Positions 12,627 through 33,406 of a stretch of 34,221 bases of DNA are shown here, piece by piece. The DNA is taken from the NCBI GenBank assembly GCA_018824725.1, contig JAHJGB010000102.1, forward strand, positions 1 through 34,221. Reading direction: 5' to 3'. Position numbers and translations under genes: made by a program. The notes beneath the pieces are model-generated. The model ran no database searches and had not been told where the DNA came from. It worked only from the letters and a program-made list of their open reading frames with translations. Numbering within the stretch: the stretch's first letter is position 1; the number at the start of each line of letters is the position of its first letter. The DNA is from Candidatus Omnitrophota bacterium. Lineage in GTDB: Bacteria; Omnitrophota; Gorgyraeia; Gorgyraeales; Gorgyraeaceae.

Positions 12627-12812
12627 CTGGGTCAGGCTGAGGCCGTTCGGCACTGAAATAGTTTCGCCGCGCGCTACGGTTTACGGCTCATTTTTTATAC
12701 CGAAGGTAGTCTTGACGGTATAAAAACTTCGCCGTAATCCCTTGCGCGCTTAGCTGTAAAAAGCTATTATGCCGAAACTTTTCTAATGTGCCTCAGACCC
12801 AGCCTGACCCAG
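12627..12812 (+). repeat. 180-bp structured repeat, copy 1
   Basis: Terminal inverted repeats CTGGGTCAGGCTG / CAGCCTGACCCAG bound the element. Conserved blocks shared with the copy at 24669-24849 are GCCGTTCGGCACTGAAATA, CTACGGTTTACGGCTC, GTAATCCCTTGC and TCTAATGTGCCTCAGACC. The interior folds as one long hairpin: AGTTTCG with CGAAACT, GCGCGC with GCGCGC, TTACGGC with GCCGTAA, and the apical TTTTTATACCG with CGGTATAAAAA. It lies in the 365-bp gap between argS and mfd. No open reading frame of note is inside. It could be a non-autonomous mobile element or a structured RNA gene. Confidence 0.85.
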
Positions 12813-12832
12813 CAATATATAGAATAGCTATT

Positions 12833-12975
12833 CTTTCCGGCTGGCAGGTTTGAGAAAAGCAATGAGCGAAGGACGCCTCGCTGGGGCGTTTGAGCGCCCG
12901 TCGGCAAAGCCTAAAGATTGCGCAAGTCCCGAGTGAAGCGAGGGGCGTCTTTTCGAAAGCCTGCCAGCCGGAAAG
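12833..12975. repeat. Terminal-inverted-repeat element with CCAGCGA hairpin, copy 1
   Basis: A perfect 16-bp terminal inverted repeat, CTTTCCGGCTGGCAGG (12833-12848) and its complement (12960-12975), encloses 111 bp. An internal hairpin ACGCC-(TCGCTGG)-GGCGT (12873-12889) has a loop that reads CCAGCGA on the minus strand. The strings CGAAAAGACGC and CCCCAGCGAGGC are shared with the element at 24538-24901. It ends 4 bp after the argS stop. No coding capacity is evident. Confidence 0.8.
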
Positions 12976-12979
12976 ATCA

Positions 12980-23309: not shown

Positions 23310-23355
23310 ACTATCGAAGTCCGACTCCCATAGTCGGGAGTCGGACCTCGATAGT
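23310..23355. repeat. GACTCCC hairpin, copy 5 (long form)
   Basis: ACTATCGA-A-GTCCGACTCCC, a 6-nt loop, then GGGAGTCGGAC-C-TCGATAGT: an 8-bp outer and an 11-bp inner stem with one mismatch. It fills the gap between the aminotransferase stop (23356) and the LeuC-type start, and it extends the LeuC frame spuriously. The outer arms (ACTATCGA) differ from those of other copies but still pair with each other. Confidence 0.8.
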
Positions 23356-24537: not shown

Positions 24538-24901
24538 GGGATTAGGCAGGCCTACGAAAAGACGCTCGGTTGCCCCAGCGAGGCAACCTTCGCTCCGCGC
24601 CGATTCTCGCCCTTCGTCGCTTTGCTCCTCAGGACCAGGTCAATACTAAGCAAAACGTCTGGGCTCACCCTGTCAGGCAGGTCTGAGGCACATTAGAAAA
24701 ATTTTGCCAAATGTCCGCAAGGGATTACAGCGAGCAAATGACGGAACTGACCCTCGTCTATAATATATGAAGAATTCCGCCAAATTTGCGAGCCGTAAAC
24801 CGTAGCGGACGGCAAAATTATTTCAGTGCCGAACGGCCTGCCTGACAGGATACCATGCCCGCTCGAATCGGCAAGGCTTTTCTTTAGGCCTGCCTAATCC
24901 C
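24538..24901. repeat. Terminal-inverted-repeat element with CCAGCGA hairpin, copy 2, hosting a second repeat
   Basis: A perfect 17-bp terminal inverted repeat, GGGATTAGGCAGGCCTA (24538-24554) and its complement (24885-24901), spans nearly the whole 391-bp gap between rplQ and the aminotransferase. Internal strings CGAAAAGACGC and CCCCAGCGAGGC match the element at 12833. The hairpin GGTTGCC-(CCAGCGA)-GGCAACC (24568-24588) keeps the loop of the other copy while changing the stem on both sides. A copy of the 180-bp structured repeat lies inside. Confidence 0.8.
24669..24849 (-). repeat. 180-bp structured repeat, copy 2 (inverted)
   Basis: Terminal repeats CCTGTCAGGCAGG (24669-24681) and complement (24837-24849). 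Read on the minus strand it contains the same blocks as copy 1 (GCCGTTCGGCACTGAAATA, CTACGGTTTACGGCTC, GTAATCCCTTGC, TCTAATGTGCCTCAGACC). Its stems differ but still pair: AATTTTGCC with GGCAAAATT, GTCCGC with GCGGAC, and TTACGGC with GCTGTAA (one G-U). The apical region is unrelated to copy 1. Confidence 0.85.
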
Positions 24902-25524: not shown

Positions 25525-25650
25525 TTAACTCAAAAGTAAAAACGAAAAAGTCAAAACTACAATTAAAAACTCAAAACCTTTTATTTCTATTTTTAAATTT
25601 TAACTTTTGAATTTTGGTTTTACCTTTTTACTTTTGACTTTTTAGTTTAC
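25525..25650. repeat. A/T-rich inverted array, copy 1
   Basis: The left half consists of AAAAGTAAAAA and AAAAGTCAAAA units and the right half of their complements (CTTTTTACTTTTGACTTTTT), so the region can fold on itself. The first 50 bp match the copy at 29990 with one difference. It fills the 149-bp gap between rpoA and rplQ. Confidence 0.75.
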
Positions 25651-29978: not shown

Positions 29979-29989
29979 ATCGCCTCTAT

Positions 29990-30078
29990 AACTCAAAAGT
30001 AAAAACGAAAAAGTCAAAACTACAATTAAAAATTCAAAACCTTAATTTTAACTTTTTACTTTTGACTTTTAACTTTTG
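29990..30078. repeat. A/T-rich inverted array, copy 2
   Basis: ACTCAAAAGTAAAAACG and the following 35 bp match copy 1 at 25525 with one difference. The right half is T-rich (TTTTTACTTTTGACTTTTAA) and complements the left. It lies between the secY stop (30079) and adk. Its core lacks the roughly 35 bp present in the middle of copy 1. Confidence 0.75.
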
Positions 30079-33365: not shown

Positions 33366-33406
33366 TTATGGAAGCCCGACTCCCTATGGGAGTCGGGCTT
33401 CCATAA
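33366..33406. repeat. GACTCCC hairpin, copy 6 (perfect)
   Basis: TTATGGAAGCCCGACTCCC, loop TAT, then the exact inverse: a 41-bp perfect palindrome. It abuts the rpsH stop codon (33407-33409) inside the spc operon. It gives the best consensus for the family. There is no T tract, so read-through to rplF is expected. Confidence 0.85.

Follow-up and report, generated by a model that had tools for sequence, protein, structure and literature searches.

An interspersed palindromic repeat family with covarying stems in the intergenic spacers of Omnitrophota

Bacterial palindromic repeats of the MITE-like kind, including ERIC, the Correia/NEMIS elements and the Rickettsia palindromic elements (RPE), have been reviewed together (PMC10969869). 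These repeats are small, palindromic and without an open reading frame, are present in tens of copies, and are located mainly between genes in both orientations, and the same holds for the Omnitrophota element described here. As in our element, Correia elements are capable of inverting, and SPRITE repeats were reported to insert into each other. A different process, template switching at inverted repeats, leaves homogenised arms and inverted spacers behind (PMC8604942, PMC8794818).

The window, which is the whole stretch of 34,221 nucleotides that was analysed (contig JAHJGB010000102.1, assembly GCA_018824725.1, from a Candidatus Omnitrophota bacterium), carries two copies of the element, and larger palindromes surround or adjoin them.

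12627-12812, plus strand: hairpin element, copy 1, with apical module A, in the spacer between the minus-strand genes argS and mfd
12627-12639, plus strand: left arm of the basal free-sequence stem of copy 1, CTGGGTCAGGCTG
12642-12689, plus strand: conserved 5' half of the core of copy 1, GCCGTTCGGCACTG .. CTACGGTTTACGGCTC
12690-12729, plus strand: apical module A of copy 1, hairpin TTTTTATACC..GGTATAAAAA
12730-12799, plus strand: conserved 3' half of the core of copy 1, GCCGTAATCCCTTGC .. TCTAATGTGCCTCAGACC, variable side arm included
12800-12812, plus strand: right arm of the basal free-sequence stem of copy 1, CAGCCTGACCCAG
24669-24849, minus strand: hairpin element, copy 2, with apical module B, in the spacer between two minus-strand genes, rplQ and one for an aminotransferase
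24837-24849 and 24669-24681, minus strand: outer arms of copy 2, CCTGTCAGGCAGG and CCTGCCTGACAGG
12642-12660 (copy 1, plus strand) and 24819-24837 (copy 2, minus strand): shared block GCCGTTCGGCACTGAAATA
12674-12689 (copy 1) and 24790-24805 (copy 2): shared block CTACGGTTTACGGCTC
12734-12745 (copy 1) and 24717-24728 (copy 2): shared block GTAATCCCTTGC
12782-12799 (copy 1) and 24680-24697 (copy 2): shared block TCTAATGTGCCTCAGACC
24538-24901, minus strand: larger palindromic repeat of a second family, with GGGATTAGGCAGGCCT and AGGCCTGCCTAATCCC as its outermost arms and copy 2 located at the tip
12832-12976, no strand assigned: member of the second family directly adjoining copy 1, arms TCTTTCCGGCTGGCAGG and CCTGCCAGCCGGAAAGA

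A sequence-only reading of the window had described both copies, their four shared blocks and their outer arms, and every one of these was located at the coordinates it claimed. The stems of both copies are paired, as it had also claimed, and the TAC/CTT internal loop that it took to be kept stays open in the predicted folds of both. Each copy was predicted to fold into a single long rod, at -92 kcal/mol for copy 1 and -99 kcal/mol for copy 2, with a folding z of about -10 for the window copies against mononucleotide shuffles. The element is 130-220 bp long and is, as a whole, an imperfect inverted repeat. Its apical part does vary, as the reading held, but is not simply free to do so, being drawn from few modules: A (TTTTTATACC..GGTATAAAAA) in copy 1, B (GGCGGAATTC..GTCAGTTCCGCC) in copy 2, and C (..CTATCG..).

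The element is not confined to these two copies. A covariance model built from 12 copies of the same genome found about 19 copies there, and BLAST added fragments; the true number is probably higher, since several of these copies are at contig ends. Among relatives, 22 of 59 genomes were positive, with up to 44 matches per genome, a maximum that also counts reverse-strand echoes of the palindrome. With a broader covariance model, hundreds of copies were found in Omnitrophota, in 64 of the 285 sampled genomes and 46 of the 224 genera. A two-part pattern run against 84,980 species genomes matched at least 112 stretches, and among the matches listed the named hosts were all Candidatus Omnitrophota except one 'bacterium' bin. 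As far as seen, the family is limited to Omnitrophota, and copies in other phyla may exist. Comparison with Rfam 15 gave zero matches at the gathering score, the best permissive match being a plant microRNA model (E 1.2), and no copy was found in plasmids, in phages or by a pattern scan of IMG/VR. The open-licence literature held no description of the element family, which is apparently undescribed before. The copies, which are scattered in either orientation and mostly lie between genes, constitute a phylum-wide repeat family shaping the intergenic space of a group mostly known from metagenomes.

The basal stem, of about 19 bp, is nearly free in sequence yet self-complementary. Counted outward from the core over 109 copies, stem positions 7-18 carry 0.06-0.4 bits and are paired in 59-86% of the copies versus 37-51% when shuffled, with pairing stopping at about position 19, and the longest exact inverted match between the flanks has a mean of 15.7 nt versus 6.7 nt permuted. 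Copies with cores 98-99% identical can have stems that are quite different but fully paired, for example L089, L093 and L087, all from one genome, and between near-identical copies the identity of the arms, 0.92 beside the core, has dropped to about 0.45 at a distance of 14 nt. A loose consensus, CAGGCTGGGGCC, is retained in the inner part, so that the stem resembles a mosaic of element and site. That the outer stem is merely an unrelated pre-existing palindrome was found to be only partly true, given this inner consensus and a stem change at orthologous sites (L132 versus L139).

Presence, place and orientation of the element differ between orthologous spacers of close relatives. The argS-mfd spacer is only about 12 bp long and without a hairpin in G008, contains simple unrelated palindromes in G002, G004, G007 and G011, and carries the element in G000, G001, G005, G006 and G010, where place, strand and nesting level differ. 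A different unrelated palindrome was seen in this spacer in nearly each species of the genus (L308-L318). A whole nest is present in one and absent from the other of G010 and G005, the flanks of which are 92 and 95% identical; such presence/absence comparisons are between species-level genomes and place the insertion boundaries only approximately. Where both orthologous spacers are occupied, orientation agrees in 62 pairs, 10 of which are one locus fetched in duplicate, and disagrees in 35, and many of the pairs are non-independent. The clearest inversion is that between L081 (G017) and L212 (G018), where the flanks have 94-97% identity and the terminator-like stem is shared, apart from compensatory changes, but the element enclosed by it is inverted. 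In tandem spacers, 70 copies have the same orientation as the genes and 51 the opposite one. Direct repeats of at least 8 nt were observed at 13 of 127 copies versus 3.5 permuted, a slight excess that palindromic stems can explain. Separate models for the two halves revealed no autonomous or ORF-bearing copy, the distance between the halves never exceeding about 120 bp over 208 pairs, an absence that is not certain because MAG assemblies break at repeats. The many copies in both orientations, the differences between orthologous spacers and the lack of an ORF-bearing version agree with the earlier suggestion of a mobile, non-autonomous element.

The studied element is often located at the tips of other palindromes, forming nested hairpins that are in register with the host stems. 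The entire nest around copy 2 (24538-24901) folds at -190 kcal/mol. Its host belongs to a second repeat family, whose branched palindromes are organised as GAGAAAAGC..GAGCGGGCACGGTGTC, tip, GACGAGCG..CTTTTCG and have a variable basal stem of their own; their tip is occupied by the studied element or, in its place, by a short N8-GAATA-N8 hairpin. In one copy (L005, at G000:C176), a third hairpin is inserted into the side arm; near-perfect palindromes of the same kind, GGAAGCCCGACTCCC..GGGAGTCGGGCTTCC, are found in the window at 33366-33406 and 23310-23355. The window also contains the A-rich sequence AAGTAAAAACGAAAAAGTCAAAACTACAA at two sites, 25527-25648 and 29987-30077, and a T-rich partner of it in inverted orientation. 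Another outer layer of repeats, ..TACTTTCAATG.AGGTAACACT / AGTGTTACCT.TCATTGAAAGTATTGC.., was observed at L119 (600-1180), L017 (870-1210) and L093 (680-1110), with apparent end direct repeats of about 8-16 bp relative to empty sites, as for a transposed element. In a comparison of L170 (7287-7502) with L149 (664-1017), the orthologous spacer of a distant relative was occupied by an unrelated, G+C-rich long palindrome (GCGCGAAGCT..), which indicated that palindrome-rich spacers are not limited to the studied family.

We consider it probable, with a fair measure of reserve, that the element is a non-autonomous interspersed palindromic repeat of the MITE/ERIC-like type, mobilised in trans through its folded strand, with template switching keeping its stems matched. 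The bases of the internal loops and the asymmetry of these loops are conserved across families and phylum-wide, and the conserved asymmetric loops suggest that the folded strand is probably recognised by something, which could be a trans-acting recombinase or transposase. Such a putative enzyme would join the folded hairpin to the tip of another hairpin, and replication template switching between the arms may then maintain the match of the stems and flip the interior. A bolder form of this proposal, which we put forward tentatively and regard as doubtful, is that the mobile element targets hairpin structure and not sequence: the enzyme would attach a folded hairpin, in register, to another hairpin's stem in place of the tip, and over repeated rounds Russian-doll palindromes would arise in intergenic spacers throughout the phylum. 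If an enzyme acting on folded DNA were indeed behind the in-register nesting, this would amount to a new rule by which mobile elements choose their targets.

Stem covariation, which the sequence-only reading had noticed between two copies, is very strong over 97 copies. In an alignment of these copies, which was fitted to the model and therefore somewhat favours structure, 97.8% of cells are paired, both partners vary in 41 of 52 pairs (25 after shuffling), and the covariation score reaches 0.345 versus 0.118 for shuffled alignments and 0.03-0.07 with partners slid; none of 500 shuffles matched the observed values. Neither outcome that the reading had named as refuting it, a lack of covariation or the existence of these two copies alone, was thus observed. 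Together with the conserved unpaired bases, such covariation would be in line with a structured non-coding RNA or RNA motif, either an sRNA or a processed mRNA element, whose fold is under selection and whose copies are paralogous RNA genes or parts of mRNAs. The reading had indeed held that a structured RNA would be expected to leave such covariation, but the classes of mismatch carry no RNA-strand bias. Selection on one transcribed strand should place G·U far above A·C, and the equal counts that we observed do not favour an RNA: departures from pairing comprised 42 G·T and 43 A·C, with two conserved wobble columns left out and in sequences that are related to each other, and the outer stem gave 68 G·T and 74 A·C, whereas tRNAs of the same genus, a control set biased to high-scoring genes, gave 37 to 0. 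This parity is an indication, not proof, against selection on an RNA strand. Helices 2-4 alone lean to G·T over A·C by 10 to 1, which hints weakly at RNA-level selection in these helices. The block replacement of outer stems free in sequence between copies with near-identical cores, the location of copies both ways relative to genes, the inversion at orthologous sites, and copy numbers ranging from 0 to dozens inside one genus all speak against a structured RNA as well, and we regard it as unlikely; the other possibility that the reading had named, a hairpin recognised as DNA, fits better.

Template switching can itself create covariation, so covariation need not mean a functional RNA, and the covariation of the stems was plausibly helped by template switching during replication. 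By itself, template switching cannot explain either the dispersal of the element or the persistence of its conserved loops. That very strong covariation in repeated hairpins is possible without an RNA-strand signature matters for pipelines that predict new RNAs from covariation only.

Transcription termination offers another use for such hairpins, and runs of T and A flank many outer stems in the manner of a two-way terminator (L060, L061, L150 and L153), with copies located in spacers near gene ends. However, the element does not avoid divergent spacers, which are occupied at the expected rate (18 of 145 versus 47 of 418), orthologous spacers lack the element or contain unrelated hairpins, and termination does not need a conserved core of 150 bp; it is therefore quite improbable that the nested hairpins are domesticated bidirectional terminators or mRNA 3'-end stabilisers, kept for stopping transcription or protecting transcripts. 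Least probable of all, and in our view very unlikely, is a known single-strand recombination site, either REP-like and moved by Y1 (RAYT) transposases or attC-like and moved by the integron integrase: the hairpin is imperfect with conserved extrahelical positions and Y1 genes occur in every searched genome of the taxonomic family, but Y1 is also present in genomes without the element, neither the element nor nested palindromes flank any of the 14 Y1 genes examined, per-position information revealed no conserved tetranucleotide at the hairpin base, R and L boxes of the attC core-site type were not noticed in the element's consensus, and the element is far longer than the short REP hairpins.

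The search for a mobilising enzyme found none. The 14 unflanked loci led us to reject Y1 transposase as a linked mobiliser, and Y1 showed no clear relation to element copy number. Neither reverse transcriptase nor IS110 is likely to be a general mobiliser, as both are absent from the copy-rich genomes G000, G001, G008 and G010, although these are incomplete MAGs and the absence is not absolute. Three reverse-transcriptase genes, on contigs C28, C55 and C43 of G004, were the only ones among the 19 searched genomes of the family.

The interspersed palindromic repeat that we favour can be compared with several described systems. It differs from the MITE-like repeats in its free-sequence basal stem and in that it is usually nested at the tip of another palindrome, and neither a clean target-site duplication nor sequence kinship in Rfam, plasmids or phages was found for it. 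As to the features that define a MITE, no ends in common with an autonomous mover were found, in MAGs that are broken at repeats; the element is short, foldable and without a transposase gene, it has terminal inverted repeats, its copies are dispersed, and insertions differ between relatives. Template-switch mutation (PMC8794818, PMC8604942) has the homogenisation of arms, the multi-base compensatory changes and the spacer inversion in common with what was observed here, but it acts within one site, without by itself transporting elements elsewhere, and internal loops would tend to be lost under it. REP/BIME and the insertion sequences targeting them (PMC1525189, PMC2817692) are similar in that palindromic extragenic repeats are involved and palindromes serve as insertion targets; REPs are short hairpins, whereas in the present case guest and target alike are gene-less palindromic repeats.
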